Assembly: GCA_024639405.1 (NCBI GenBank)
Contig: JAHEIL010000002.1
Span: 62,001-126,000, forward strand
Origin: Crocinitomicaceae bacterium
GTDB lineage: Bacteria > Bacteroidota > Bacteroidia > Flavobacteriales_D > Crocinitomicaceae
DNA: 64,000 bases
Reading direction: 5' to 3'
Position numbers and translations under genes: made by a program. The notes beneath the pieces are model-generated. The model did no database searches. It was given only the letters and a program-made list of their open reading frames with translations, and had not been told where the DNA came from. The first letter of the stretch is position 1; each line of letters starts with the position of its first letter. Positions 44,476 to 49,159 of the stretch are shown in pieces.

Positions 44476-46080
44476 ATGAAACGTTTCGCTTTTTTTAGTT
44501 TAATCCTATTCAGTTGGTTGAATAATTTTGCTCAAATTGCACCATTTACGATTGAAATAGAACCAATTTCAATAAATGGATTAGGGGGAATTCAATCTTT
44601 TGCTTTTGGACAAGGGAATGGCAAATGGTTAATCATTGGTGGGCGTTTAGATGGATTACACAAAAGACAACCCAATGCTTCTTTTGATCTTGCTGGACAT
44701 AACAATCAATTAATTGTTGTAGACCCAATTACACTTCAAAAATGGACTGCACCATTAACATCATTGAGTATTGAATTACAAGAGCAATTGAAATCAACCA
44801 ATATGCAGTTTCATCAAAGAGGAGACTATTTATATATAACGGGAGGATATGGATTTAGCAGTCAATTAAATGATCATACAACGTTCAATAAAATGATTGC
44901 TATTCAGATTTCTTCTACAATTGACGCAATTGTTAATGCGACAGCTTTAACCCCTTATTTTCGTCAAATCACGGATAATCAATTTCAAGTAACTGGGGGA
45001 CGTTTAGAGAAAATAAATCACACGTTTTATTTAGTAGGAGGACACAAATTTATTGGCCGATACAATCCAATGAATAATCCAACATACACACAAACTTATA
45101 CGAATCAAATTCGAAAATTTAACATTTTTGATGATGGTACGAATTTACAAATCACACATTTATCTGCATACTCAGACCCAATCAATCTTCATCGACGTGA
45201 TTACAATGTAACACCACAAATTTATCCAGATGGCTCTGAAGGATTAACTGCATTTTCAGGTGTATTTCAACCTAACGTTGATTTACCATATCTAAATTGT
45301 GTAAACATTGATAGCACAATTTATACAGTAAATACTAATTTTTCTCAATATTACAATCATTACCATTGTGCAAATTTTCCTATTTATTCAGTCCAAAACA
45401 ACACGATGAATACTGTATTTTTTGGTGGGATCGCACAATATTATGACAGCTCGGGGATATTGGTTCAAGACAATAATGTACCATTTGTCAAAACGATTGC
45501 CCGCGTAGAGAGAACAAGTAATGGACAAATGTCGGAATATAAATTACCTGTTGAATTACCTAATCTATTGGGAGCTGGCGCAGAACTAATTCCAAATGAA
45601 GCATTGCCAAAATATGCCAATGGAGTAATTAAATATGATGATTTAGTAGACGATACAACTTTAATCGGTTACATTTTCGGAGGAATAAGTAGTAGTTCAA
45701 AAAATATTTTCTTTGTGAATAATGGCACACAAAGTTCCGCTAGTAATCAAATTTTTAAAGTTAAATTAATTAAAAATGAAGCAGCAGCTATTGATGATCT
45801 AAATGAACAAAGTATAGGGACGTTAAAACTAGTTACAGCTCCTAATCCTTCCAATGGAAGTTTTGAAGCAACCTATAATTTGATTGCTCCATCTGATGTT
45901 ACCATTACATTTTCAAAACTATCAGGAGAAATAACGGAAACTGTTAAACTTAAAAACCAACCACAAGGAACAAACACGTACAAACAAGATCAACTTAAAA
46001 ATCTAGCGGATGGGGCATACTTTATTCGAGTGGATACACAAAACGAAACAGCTATTCAAAAAATAATCATTAAAAAATAA
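44476..46080 (+). CDS. Kelch-like secreted protein with T9SS C-terminal domain
   Basis: A 534-residue protein with a signal peptide (1-20, ending NFAQ). Repeated blocks of the type LIIGGRLDG, LYITGGYG, FYLVGGHKF, FFGGIAQ, IFGGISS, each spaced by 50-100 residues, resemble Kelch beta-propeller blades. The C-terminal T9SS domain is at about 455-534 (LVTAPNPSNGSFEATY ... IQKIIIKK). It is probably surface exposed. It lies 3 bp upstream of a cytochrome c lipoprotein gene, so the two are co-transcribed; a shared role in surface redox or ligand binding is inference only. Confidence 0.82.
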   Translation: MKRFAFFSLILFSWLNNFAQIAPFTIEIEPISINGLGGIQSFAFGQGNGKWLIIGGRLDGLHKRQPNASFDLAGHNNQLIVVDPITLQKWTAPLTSLSIELQEQLKSTNMQFHQRGDYLYITGGYGFSSQLNDHTTFNKMIAIQISSTIDAIVNATALTPYFRQITDNQFQVTGGRLEKINHTFYLVGGHKFIGRYNPMNNPTYTQTYTNQIRKFNIFDDGTNLQITHLSAYSDPINLHRRDYNVTPQIYPDGSEGLTAFSGVFQPNVDLPYLNCVNIDSTIYTVNTNFSQYYNHYHCANFPIYSVQNNTMNTVFFGGIAQYYDSSGILVQDNNVPFVKTIARVERTSNGQMSEYKLPVELPNLLGAGAELIPNEALPKYANGVIKYDDLVDDTTLIGYIFGGISSSSKNIFFVNNGTQSSASNQIFKVKLIKNEAAAIDDLNEQSIGTLKLVTAPNPSNGSFEATYNLIAPSDVTITFSKLSGEITETVKLKNQPQGTNTYKQDQLKNLADGAYFIRVDTQNETAIQKIIIKK

Positions 46081-46083
46081 CGT

Positions 46084-46518
46084 ATGAAAATCACAAAAAC
46101 ATTTGGTCTTATTATTGGAACTGGAATTATTCTTTATGCTAGTTCTTGTTCAAAAAAAGAAGTAACATATTCAACTAATGGCGAAACAATCTTTAGAACT
46201 GGAAAAAACATAGATGGAACAATCCTTCAAGATATGAGTGCATCAATTTACAACTCAAAAGTACATGGATGTGCTGATTGTCATGGTGAAAACGGTAAAG
46301 GAAAATACCGAGGAGGTGATGAGAAAGAAACATTTTCAATTACCTACAATGATTTAACCAATTCTAATATCTATTCACCAGTATACAATGACAGTCTGAT
46401 TGAACGTTTTATTGATAGTGAAACAAAAAGTAATGGAACACATGCAAATACAGGCGTGGTTTTTAAAATGAGCAAAACAGAAAAAGTAGCTTTAATAGAA
46501 TTTTTGAAAACTCTTTAA
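46084..46518 (+). CDS. Mono-haem cytochrome c lipoprotein
   Basis: A 144-residue lipoprotein (lipobox ASSC, Cys22) with one CXXCH haem site, CADCH (Cys63, Cys66, His67), and a likely distal ligand Met129 in VFKMSKTEK, giving a class I cytochrome c fold. It sits in the periplasm or outer membrane. Its partners are unknown. The upstream neighbour is the Kelch-like T9SS protein, whose stop is 3 bp before this start. Confidence 0.9.
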   Translation: MKITKTFGLIIGTGIILYASSCSKKEVTYSTNGETIFRTGKNIDGTILQDMSASIYNSKVHGCADCHGENGKGKYRGGDEKETFSITYNDLTNSNIYSPVYNDSLIERFIDSETKSNGTHANTGVVFKMSKTEKVALIEFLKTL

Positions 46519-46586: not shown

Positions 46587-47228
46587 ATGGAAAAATCAGT
46601 TGAAGCGTATTTAGCAAAAATCACCCAGTGGAAGGATGAAGTCAATCAATTAAGAAGAATTGTTTTAGATTGTAATTTGGTGGAAGTTGTAAAATGGGGA
46701 GTACCTTGTTATACGTTTCAAAATAAAAACATTTTATTGTTCCATGCTTTTAAAGAATATTGTGCCATTGGTTTTTTTAAAGGTTCGTTATTACAAGATT
46801 CAGAAAATATATTGAGCCAACCTGGAGAAAACTCTCAAGCTGGAAGACAAATCAGATTTACATCTGTCAATGAAATTAGTGCTTTAGAACAAATCATTAA
46901 AGCATACATCTTTGAGGCCATAGAAGTTGAGCGTGCTGGATTGAAAGTTAAAATGAAAACAACGAGTGAGTATGCAATGCCTGATGAATTTGTTGACGAA
47001 TTGAAAAAATCTGAAGAACTTAAAAAAGCATTTGAGGCATTAACACCTGGAAGACAACGTGGATATTTATTGTATTTTTCTTCTGCTAAACAATCTGAAA
47101 CCAGAACACAACGAATAGATAAATGCAAAAATAAAATATTGGCAGGAAAAGGCTTTAACGATTGCACGTGTGGTTTATCGAAACGCATGCCAGGGTGCGA
47201 TGGTTCACATAGATTTTTAGAAAAATAA
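46587..47228 (+). CDS. DUF1801/YdeI-family protein with C-terminal CDGSH iron-sulfur motif
   Basis: A 213-residue cytoplasmic protein with three parts. Residues 1-115 are a DUF1801 domain (VVKWGVPCYTFQNKNILLFHAFKEYCAIGFFKGSLLQD, in part). Residues 125-190 are a YdeI/OmpD-associated segment (LKKAFEALTPGRQRGYLLYFSSAKQ). Residues 193-208 give a full CDGSH motif CTCGLSKRMPGCDGSH with Cys193, Cys195, Cys204 and His208 (C-X-C-X2-S-X3-P-X-C-D-G-S-X0-H, as in mitoNEET-type 2Fe-2S proteins, except that H follows S directly). The combination is unusual and its function is not known to me. Confidence 0.82.
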   Translation: MEKSVEAYLAKITQWKDEVNQLRRIVLDCNLVEVVKWGVPCYTFQNKNILLFHAFKEYCAIGFFKGSLLQDSENILSQPGENSQAGRQIRFTSVNEISALEQIIKAYIFEAIEVERAGLKVKMKTTSEYAMPDEFVDELKKSEELKKAFEALTPGRQRGYLLYFSSAKQSETRTQRIDKCKNKILAGKGFNDCTCGLSKRMPGCDGSHRFLEK

Positions 47229-47335: not shown

Positions 47336-48415
47336 ATGAAAATAACTATAATTAAAACATTTTTTATTATAAGTTCAATTTTACTTTTACAAAGCTGTTC
47401 AATTGAAAAAAGAGCTTTTAGACCAGGATATTACATTGATTGGCATGCTAAAAAAAACCTATTAAATTCACAAAAATTATATGAATCACATTTTGAAAAT
47501 CAAAATGATGACACTTTAGATGAATTAATAACAAATGATTATGTAGTTCAGGAAATAAATAACAATTTAAATTCTTTTTTTATCAATGACTCGAATTCGA
47601 AAGGAATAATTTTAAAAAAAGAAAATTTAAACTTAAAAACACATTCAAAATCAAAAAAAAATGAAAATAGGATAAATGTTTCTAGATCTTATTTTCAAAA
47701 AAAAATTCGCAACAAAAAAATATCAAAACCAACAGAAAAATCTAATCATTTAGGCCTCTTTTCCTTTATACTCGGTATAATATCTTTGATTATGCTATTA
47801 GTAGCTTTGTTCAACCCTTTAACTTTTGGAACTAAACCACTTCCAATTTTATTTTATTTAATTGAAATTGTAATAACGCTTTTGGCTATAATTTTTGGGA
47901 TTATAACAAAACAACAATTCAAAAAGAAAAAAAGGATTTATAATAAAAGAGCTCAGAAATTGGCAACAATTGGAATTTACTTTGGTTCTATTGGTGGTTT
48001 TTTATTTTTAGGTTTTATTATTGCTCCAATAATTAATTATGTGCTTGGAGAAAAAACTAAAAACACGAAACAAGAAAAAAAAATAATATTCAATGAAAAC
48101 CAAACACAACCTCAAAACACAACTTCAATAGTTAAAAACAAAAAAAATACTTGGGCATTAATCTCATTTATTTTAGGTTGTTTAGCATTAATAGTTAGTT
48201 TATTAAGTATAATTTCATCTCCAACATTTGCTTTTTTCATACCATTCTTATCTACATTTGGAATAATTACAGGAATTGTAAGTATAAAGCAAATACATAA
48301 AACTAAAAATTATAATAAATCGTCGAATACCTTTTCGGTTTTGGGCTTGATTTTTAATTTAATATCTTTTCCTATAATTATTTATAGTTTTTCTAAATTA
48401 ATTGTTGTACAATGA
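47336..48415 (+). CDS. Lipoprotein with two DUF4190-like membrane blocks (copy 1 of a tandem pair)
   Basis: About 359 residues. The start is the ATG at 47336, which places a lipobox LQSC at Cys21; an in-frame TTG at 47309 is less likely. After the signal comes SIEKRAFRPGYYIDWH, then a long polar, Asn/Lys-rich linker (about 40-135) and two hydrophobic blocks of DUF4190 type (about 140-240 and 270-355; GLFSFILGIISLIM, WALISFILGCLALIV). A lipidated N-terminus combined with inner-membrane-like hairpins is odd. The next gene is a close paralogue. Function unknown. Confidence 0.75.
   Translation: MKITIIKTFFIISSILLLQSCSIEKRAFRPGYYIDWHAKKNLLNSQKLYESHFENQNDDTLDELITNDYVVQEINNNLNSFFINDSNSKGIILKKENLNLKTHSKSKKNENRINVSRSYFQKKIRNKKISKPTEKSNHLGLFSFILGIISLIMLLVALFNPLTFGTKPLPILFYLIEIVITLLAIIFGIITKQQFKKKKRIYNKRAQKLATIGIYFGSIGGFLFLGFIIAPIINYVLGEKTKNTKQEKKIIFNENQTQPQNTTSIVKNKKNTWALISFILGCLALIVSLLSIISSPTFAFFIPFLSTFGIITGIVSIKQIHKTKNYNKSSNTFSVLGLIFNLISFPIIIYSFSKLIVVQ
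47354..47445 (+). repeat. Direct repeat unit 1, lipoprotein leader of the tandem pair
   Basis: The region coding for the signal peptide and SIEKR motif is nearly identical to 48466-48560: the stretch from ATTATAAGTTCAATTTTACT through CAAAGCTGTTCAATTGAAAA is unchanged. This is a sign of recent duplication or gene conversion. Confidence 0.85.
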
Positions 48416-48448
48416 ATCTAAAACAAAATATTGACTAAAAAAACAACT

Positions 48449-49159
48449 ATGAATACAACCATACATAAAACATTTTTCATTATAAGTTCAATTTTACTTT
48501 TACAAAGCTGTTCAATTGAAAAAAGAACTTTAAGATCAGGATACTATATTGATTGGAACCAACGATCTCATCACTTTTCAAATGATGATTTAACAAGTGA
48601 TTTTAATCCAAAAATGGAGAGAGATAACAATCAAGCACTTCAATTGACGCATATACCGTCTGAAGAAATAGAAACGAATGATATAAAACAGGAGCAGTTA
48701 GATACAACTTATGAAAAAAATCATGAAGCTGTAAAAATTGATGACTTGTATTCCAATCATACCATTAAATTACCAACTTTTCAACTGTCAAAAAAACTTG
48801 AAAACAAGTATTTAATGCAAGATAATTTAGACCATAAAAAAAACGATACGGTTGAAACAAAGAAAAAATTAAATAGTTGGAGTTTAATATCTTTTATTTC
48901 TGGTAGTTTTACATTGCTCTTACTTTTAATATTTGTTTCAGCTGTTGCTTCTGAATTATTAATTCTAGCATTTATTTCTTCAATCGTTGCTTCTATAACT
49001 GGAACTATTAGCATGAAACAATTAAAATCAAAAGGAGGCTATAATAAAACATCTAAAGTGTTTACAATTTTTGGTATAATTTTAAGTTTTACACCAATAC
49101 TTTTAGGTATTATCTACTTAATTAATTTTTTAAATAAATTACCAGGATTTTTTCATTAG
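48449..49159 (+). CDS. Lipoprotein with one DUF4190-like membrane block (copy 2 of a tandem pair)
   Basis: About 236 residues. The ATG at 48449 puts the lipobox LQSC at Cys21, as in copy 1. The same opening SIEKRTLRSGYYIDWNQ is followed by a polar linker (about 40-135) and only one hydrophobic block (about 140-230: WSLISFISGSFTLLLLL ... YNKTSKVFTIFGIIL, in part). The linker has diverged fully from copy 1 while the leader has not. The gap to copy 1 is 33 bp. Function unknown. Confidence 0.75.
   Translation: MNTTIHKTFFIISSILLLQSCSIEKRTLRSGYYIDWNQRSHHFSNDDLTSDFNPKMERDNNQALQLTHIPSEEIETNDIKQEQLDTTYEKNHEAVKIDDLYSNHTIKLPTFQLSKKLENKYLMQDNLDHKKNDTVETKKKLNSWSLISFISGSFTLLLLLIFVSAVASELLILAFISSIVASITGTISMKQLKSKGGYNKTSKVFTIFGIILSFTPILLGIIYLINFLNKLPGFFH
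48466..48560 (+). repeat. Direct repeat unit 2, lipoprotein leader of the tandem pair
   Basis: Second copy of the repeat at 47354-47445. Differences are limited to a few bases over the signal peptide and grow quickly after the GYYIDW codons. Confidence 0.85.

Follow-up and report, generated by a model that had tools for sequence, protein, structure and literature searches.

A conserved leader peptide shared by predicted lipoproteins with diverse linkers and membrane tails in Bacteroidia

Introduction

Two adjacent genes in the genome of a Crocinitomicaceae bacterium encode proteins that begin almost identically and then differ, and the question they raise is what keeps that beginning constant. 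The genes lie in a window of 64,000 nucleotides (assembly GCA_024639405.1, contig JAHEIL010000002.1, positions 62,001 to 126,000), which is the whole stretch of DNA analyzed here. The sequence-only reading of the window described them as tandem paralogues with a common lipoprotein signal, "fully diverged" linkers, and DUF4190-like membrane blocks, and proposed that gene conversion or a selected N terminus preserves the leader and that the pair may mark an undescribed family.

Results

Two tandem genes share a signal peptide and leader

Both genes are open reading frames on the + strand, with copy 1 running from an ATG at 47336 to a stop at 48415 (359 residues) and copy 2 from an ATG at 48449 to a stop at 49159 (236 residues). 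Their leader sequences read ...ISSILLLQSCSIEKRAFRPGYYIDW in copy 1 and ...ISSILLLQSCSIEKRTLRSGYYIDW in copy 2. The two products have the same layout of a lipoprotein signal peptide, the motif SIEKRxxRxGYYIDW, a polar stretch, and hydrophobic blocks, and by sequence each signal comprises an n-region, a hydrophobic core, and a lipobox with a terminal Cys. In copy 1, the sequence and the family alignment place the signal peptide at residues 1–20 (47336..47395, lipobox LQS followed by Cys) and the conserved leader CSIEKRAFRPGYYIDW at 47396..47443. The polar linker, recognized from hydropathy and from its divergence from copy 2, occupies residues 37–135 (47444..47740) and is followed by a first DUF4190-like membrane block at residues 136–239 (47741..48052), which is supported by Pfam and hydropathy. 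The whole protein matches PF13828 with an E-value of 2.7e-9, with its best stretch at residues 174–224, and two Pfam stretches together with block-to-block identity (28/75 residues identical to the first) mark a second DUF4190-like membrane block at residues 270–353 (48143..48394). In copy 2, the same sources of evidence place the lipoprotein signal peptide at residues 1–20 (48449..48508) and the conserved leader CSIEKRTLRSGYYIDW at 48509..48556. Its polar linker, at residues 37–143 (48557..48877), is predicted by AlphaFold2 to be disordered, with pLDDT <50 across nearly all of residues 41–116, and its DUF4190-like membrane block, at residues 144–229 (48878..49135), is suggested by a sub-threshold Pfam match and by the model, where the tail forms helices at 127–193 and 201–230. 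The first transmembrane segment begins 116 residues from the Cys in copy 1 and 123 residues from it in copy 2.

Comparison of the copies bears out the tandem arrangement with a shared lipoprotein signal and motif, with 88% identity over 33 leader residues and 33% over the aligned tail residues. The best ungapped DNA segment between them pairs 47353–47443 with 48466–48556 on the + strand at 85/91 identical bases, and is a putative conversion tract. The description "fully diverged" applies to the linkers but not to the membrane parts, which are homologous at about one third identity; in local alignments the tail of copy 2 can be matched to either block of copy 1 (37/88 residues identical with the first, 32/87 with the second). 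For DUF4190, copy 1 scores 37.1 bits with two stretches against a PF13828 gathering cut-off of 35 bits, and the single block of copy 2 lies below it at 17.5 bits (E 0.0035). A weak match of copy 2 to BamJ (E 0.1) was judged to be due to chance, and NCBIfam SLATT matches in both copies were discarded as hydrophobic and below the cut-off. The search with copy 2 and the leader profile found these two copies as the only family members in their own genome, although their leader-profile scores of 67 and 63.7 bits are too high, as each copy contributes a row to that profile.

The leader recurs across Bacteroidia

With copy 2 as the query, 50 of the 150 genomes searched in the window's family gave matches (E 0.001), and the loci read after this search have the N-terminal stretch in common, with different linkers and many different tails. 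A leader profile with 29 rows (A1) detects it in at least 87 of 150 genomes of the family (13 of 23 genera, E 1e-5) and at least 73 of 150 genomes of the order (27 of 55 genera, E 1e-4). A broader profile (A7), built from 18 seeds of which five are leaders missed by the narrow pattern, detects it in at least 76 of 296 genomes of the class (40 of 166 genera, E 1e-4), with some of the best matches being near-copies of seeds. All of these profile counts are lower bounds, as the number of first-look candidates scored per genome was at most 50 for the family and order, 26 for the class, and 19 for the phylum. Over the phylum, A1 matched 44 of 392 genomes at E 0.01, with scores above 50 bits only in the window's own genome and one family member and scores of at most 22.3 bits in the other 42 genomes. 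That search was first read as confining the leader to one order, a reading overturned by the class-level search with A7. A full-protein scan of genome contigs returned no match. Thirty-six named leader loci are labeled as Crocinitomicaceae, Cryomorphaceae, Fluviicola, other Flavobacteriales, and Bacteroidetes MAGs, with a few carrying unlikely bin names.

The leader has the consensus C-[TS]-[IV]-x-KR-x-[YH]-x-x-G-[YFW]-[HY]-[VI]-x-W. Nine loci that were duplicates or came from an already counted family were removed before a set of 157 proteins was assembled, and two of 159 proteins, both of which read QR instead of KR, were dropped for failing the strict core. In this set the core residues are K in 154 proteins, R in 152, and G in 157, counts that come from members passing a pattern with few alternatives at some positions, along with Y or H three residues after the K in 142, Y, F, or W in 152, V or I in 142, and W in 106. 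The K lies four residues after the Cys in 130 of the 157 and five to 13 residues after it in the remainder, and this spacing is identical in 87% of paralogue pairs from the same array compared with 70% of random pairs. The leader carries a net charge of +3.1 over 20 residues, and an adjacent acidic pair at positions +2 to +6 occurs in 0/157 members. In the alignment of 96 order-level members, S, A, or G precedes the Cys in 88; the Cys itself was a criterion for collection, so its presence in 96/96 carries no evidential weight. The core of the signal peptide varies freely across the family, with an entropy of ~3 bits per position. A looser form of the leader, with exactly 13 residues from Cys to KR (KRKY), is found in the TM2/DUF4190 lipoproteins L312, L340, L341, and L344, which suggests that the true spread of the leader is larger than counted.

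The leader recurs in dozens of genera, more than chance would give, and the absence of the motif elsewhere, which would have counted against the sequence-only reading, is not observed. No model of the leader is found among the Pfam families listed (25 of 41 for the 96 members, and the table for 63 class-level members) or among the NCBIfam families listed (25 of 59 for the 96 members, and the 63-member table), and the generic lipid attachment site LPAM_1 matches one of the 63 class-level members. These results fit the proposal of an undescribed family. A description of the leader was also not found in the portions of the literature covered by our search, including PMC5080379, PMC12846838, PMC10907165, and PMC8824477, which is weak evidence because motifs with wildcards cannot be searched. 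Judged by their sequences, the pair belongs to a Bacteroidia-wide modular family of predicted lipoproteins that have the leader in common and that is larger than the pair first described.

The distance from the leader to the membrane is nearly constant

S, E, K, N, and T are abundant in the linkers, which are poorly conserved, and the distance from the Cys to the first transmembrane segment stays steady while the linker sequence turns over. Among 149 proteins, this distance has a 5th centile of 109, a median of 123, and a 95th centile of 195 residues, with 90 proteins at 110–130 and two under 100, one of which is cut by the end of its contig. In 19 of the 149 members (L113, L118, L246, L262, L276, and others), the linker and the membrane part are separated by a beta-like domain of ~58 residues that carries an NG motif and two conserved cysteines, and no Pfam family is prominent for it in the tallies listed. 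In these members the first transmembrane segment is found at 156–204 residues, or at 98–146 (median 109) when the beta-like domain is subtracted. The linker of L127:4203-5102 is enlarged by SQDASQD, SENLSKN, and QGRSEG repeats relative to its shorter relative L124, and provides a natural experiment in linker length.

By the threshold used, no transmembrane segment was called in eight of the 157 proteins, among them L133, whose tail is clearly TM2-like. Three of the 96 order-level members and four class-level members lack one, some looking truncated and others not. Three such leader proteins (L260:4794-5099, L260:5158-5481, and L263:3401-3766) have basic C termini (GPRxDKKGKK) and share arrays with TM2-tailed members.

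We compared the linker with two groups of proteins. In TonB proteins of the same order, the transmembrane segment and the YP motif are separated by a median of 112 residues (range 13–246, measured for 21 of 30 loci), and by 106–120 residues in nine TonBs picked by eye as having a plain N-terminal transmembrane segment, although this is a rough measure, with YP located within the TonB domain itself, the plain L308 and L309 at 135–137, and L280 at 190. Three TonB_C proteins (L293, L297, and L302) have an N-terminal hydrophobic stretch that ends like that of a lipoprotein, with 109–114 residues to the TonB domain motif. TM2 proteins that lack the leader and have a non-lipid secretion signal show gaps of 23–75 residues with a median of 63 (12 of 27 rows), where all 12 resemble one orthologous group and the gap of 23 (L329) may reflect a mis-called transmembrane segment. 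This comparison excludes the leader lipoproteins L312, L313, and L318, the apparent signals of L314 and L315, which are TM2 helices, and ten rows with no called signal.

Tails vary, and TM2 and Pmp3 tails accompany DUF2752

At E 0.001, Pfam assigns the tails of the 96 members to Pmp3 (12), TM2 (11), and DUF4190 (11), and those of the 63 class-level members to DUF4190 (17), TM2 (10), and Pmp3 (3); we prefer these tallies to the pattern-based labels of the 157-protein set, which are too narrow for DUF4190. NF040945, a CCC motif membrane protein, matches 8/96 members at E 0.01 and 7/63 at E 0.001. Of the 22 loci with a TM2 or Pmp3 tail, 16 have an open reading frame with a DUF2752 motif within 1.5 kb, compared with 0 of 59 others (p 2e-12), a test in which relatives are not independent and tails are labeled by pattern. 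Pfam upheld the DUF2752 identity of all five open reading frames submitted, and by eye the DUF2752 product resembles a small membrane protein. Examples of DUF2752 genes next to TM2- or Pmp3-tailed leader proteins are L116:3821-4075, L154:4941-5192, L133:3470-3745, L132:4856-5137, and L109:3708-4028. At L133, TM2-like and Pmp3-like proteins sit side by side with leaders 82% identical over 33 residues and an adjoining DUF2752 gene. Given the tie of DUF2752 to both tail types, a TM2 hairpin and a Pmp3 hairpin may be able to substitute for each other as its partner, and some role common to all members may fall to the leader.

Other recurrent neighbors among those listed each occur at four or fewer loci, mostly apparent relatives. 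No DUF2752 gene lies beside the window pair, as expected from its DUF4190-like tails, and Pfam searches of the genes flanking the pair gave no functional lead. No paper on DUF2752 or on DUF4190 was found in the literature searched.

Probable maintenance of the leader by selection and occasional gene conversion

The history of the pair can be followed at one syntenic site that holds no copy in one congener (G017), one copy in a second (G106), and two in the window. The site is flanked by a kelch protein, a cytochrome c, and a DUF1801 fusion on one side and by a 158-residue protein and FabV on the other, and the flanking proteins are 76–94% identical between congeners except for a 65-residue protein at 61% in G106. 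Among these neighbors, the protein at 46587–47228 of the window combines DUF1801 with an OmdA/YdeI domain and a CDGSH motif that falls below threshold, and is represented by homologues in 23 of 26 congeneric genomes, its own included. The kelch-like secreted protein at 44476–46080 has a C terminus that by eye resembles a sorting domain, is 94% identical in two congeners, and adjoins a lipoprotein-like cytochrome c at 46084–46518.

The family member in G106 is 45% identical to copy 2. The tail of copy 2 is closer to this orthologue (47%) than to copy 1 (33%), whereas its 33-residue signal plus leader is 88% identical to copy 1 and 33% identical to the orthologue. Most of that contrast comes from the signal peptide, as over the 16 motif residues copy 2 agrees with copy 1 at 13 positions and with the orthologue at 10. 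Codons for shared residues in the pair are identical at 24/28 positions in the leader and 36/63 in the tail, in line with the suggested gene conversion. Because the 85/91 identical bases include a signal-peptide core that otherwise varies freely, leader DNA was probably copied between the two genes, although exchange of tails would look alike.

Conversion as a general rule was considered and ruled out. Leader codons in 56 pairs drawn from the same arrays (22 loci) are identical at 380/742 positions compared with 0.41 between loci, but the excess comes mainly from five loci with raised silent identity (L142, the window, L103, L133, and L111), and the remaining 17 arrays together give 192/465 = 0.41 with no excess. 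In these comparisons single-pair tests are uncorrected, codons are not independent, and, as the alignment is ungapped, some pairs with low leader identities are out of register. Between loci, tail codon identity is 0.40, close to that of the leader, though the residues of the leader stay conserved. The absence of a silent excess in 17 of 22 arrays suggests that conversion is occasional and that selection is the general cause, and the selected N terminus envisaged at the outset agrees with the retention of the motif in 157 proteins whose linkers vary and whose tails are unrelated. Multiple copies occur at 38 of 99 loci, a figure that is not a frequency because regions were partly picked for tandem matches. 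We propose that tandem copies would arise by duplication, that linkers and tails would then diverge or be exchanged, and that the leader would be held by selection and at times re-copied by gene conversion, as in the window pair.

Discussion

A tentative model in which the proteins bridge the two membranes

The predicted topology, unusual in pairing a lipid anchor at one end with a membrane hairpin at the other, could place these proteins in several ways. Our working model, to which we give somewhat less than an even chance, is that they are trans-envelope lipoproteins whose lipid and leader sit in the outer membrane and whose hairpin sits in the inner membrane, with a disordered spacer connecting the two. 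The Cys, which we infer to be lipidated, would anchor the lipid end in the outer membrane, on the leaflet facing the periplasm, a destination suggested by a leader that has no acidic surface-export signal. The leader would act as a docking peptide whose charged KR sits against the bilayer and whose alternating Y-x-V-x-W strand pairs with an envelope partner common to the family, by analogy with the TonB D-box and ExbD. The linker would span the periplasm while the hairpin remained in the inner membrane, so that the protein would join both membranes, and the tail would select an inner-membrane partner, such as DUF2752 for TM2 and Pmp3 tails. The more ambitious version, in which the leader is an unnamed sorting-and-docking peptide of Bacteroidia shuffled onto unrelated modules, with periplasmic width determining linker length and the tail determining the partner, strikes us as rather unlikely.

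Bridging is favored by the near absence of spacers under 100 residues, by the rough match to the reach of TonB in the same order, by the smaller gaps of secreted TM2 proteins with no lipid anchor, and by the disordered linker and helical tail predicted with AlphaFold2. The wider model also draws on conservation of the leader across the sets of 96 and 157 proteins, on its joining to unrelated tails, and on the DUF2752 neighbors of TM2 and Pmp3 tails. Several observations disfavor it. In DUF4190-type tails whose first hydrophobic block could accommodate two helices, the next loop has a mean charge of +2.4 (24 proteins) compared with +0.3 in 63 other members, and this positive loop would fall outside if the N terminus were periplasmic. 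The leader is basic, which is unusual directly after a signal peptide, the constant length of the linker may be inherited rather than selected, and members with no transmembrane segment indicate that the leader is not always paired with an inner-membrane anchor.

The same features can be arranged differently. Lipid and helices may both lie in the inner membrane, with the linker serving for binding or as a loop in the periplasm and the leader as a motif for assembly of a protein complex or for inner-membrane retention. Lipidated polytopic inner-membrane proteins such as CyoA and Gram-positive YidC are known, the helices here are strongly hydrophobic with many matching membrane families, and the DUF2752 partner of TM2 and Pmp3 tails itself looks like a small membrane protein; yet this arrangement leaves the rarity of spacers shorter than 100 residues and the likeness to TonB linkers unexplained, and we regard it as possible but doubtful. 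Improbable, in our view, is a topology in which the N-terminal segment is a membrane anchor, the Cys is unlipidated, and the linker is cytoplasmic. It would suit the loop charges of DUF4190-type tails, and the net charge of the 20 residues from the Cys exceeds that of the first six residues in 78 of 93 proteins, but the residue that precedes the Cys in most members (S, A, or G) is typical of signal peptidase II substrates.

An outer-membrane lipoprotein with its hydrophobic hairpin in the same membrane would resemble SlyB-type lipoproteins, which bear glycine-zipper hairpins. Glycine is common in some tails, but the tails match TM2, Pmp3, and DUF4190 instead, Rick_17kDa_Anti, which we take to be the family of SlyB, is absent from the Pfam families listed for the window, for the 96 members (25 of 41), and for the 63 class-level members, and a 110-residue spacer would not be needed, all of which makes this arrangement very improbable. 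SlyB is mentioned in PMC12846838. Recent tandem duplication alone, with leaders alike because the copies are young or converted, accounts for the five loci with raised silent identity and for the zero, one, and two copies in three congeners, but leader and tail codons agree equally between loci while leader residues are conserved regardless, 17 of 22 arrays give 0.41, and the motif spans many families and is conserved class-wide, so that there is very little chance that duplication is the whole explanation.

Consequences for annotation and envelope biology

Because models exist for the tails only, annotation would split what appears to be one common Bacteroidia lipoprotein family into DUF4190, TM2, and Pmp3 proteins, when their sequences suggest that the members form one group with a common N-terminal function. 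The family offers a handle on how Bacteroidota treat lipoproteins with no surface-export signal, and the tie between DUF2752 and TM2 or Pmp3 is a clue to the function of domains that have received little study. Should the tether reading hold, the proteins could also give insight into what keeps both membranes at a set distance. As lipoproteins with membrane tails they are of a known kind, and would amount to a new system only if bridging is real.

Comparison with known systems

Many tails belong to or resemble DUF4190 (PF13828), TM2 (PF05154), and Pmp3 (PF01679), with a minority of members matched by NF040945. Positioned matches to DUF4190, TM2, and Pmp3 all lie in the tail, with the leader, lipid anchor, and long linker outside them, and a single leader occurs with all three. 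Like the export signals of Bacteroidota lipoproteins, given as K-(D/E)2, Q-A-(D/E)2, SDDDD, and SDDFE in PMC5080379, the leader is a short conserved stretch immediately after the presumably lipidated Cys; unlike those acidic signals, it is basic and aromatic and has an acidic pair at +2 to +6 in none of the 157 members. Placement also recalls the strand of lipoproteins bound by LolE, although PMC12846838 calls that contact sequence-independent, which disfavors a Lol role for a conserved motif. The TonB D-box is a strand just downstream of the membrane anchor, according to PMC10907165, and the family resembles TonB in having a membrane anchor, an adjoining short strand motif with a similar alternating pattern, and a linker of similar length, which in TonB spans the periplasm. 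In contrast to TonB, with its inner-membrane transmembrane helix and folded C-terminal domain, the N terminus here is that of a predicted lipoprotein and the C terminus is the membrane part. The parallels with the TonB D-box and the LolE-bound strand are analogies, a similarity of working and not of membership.
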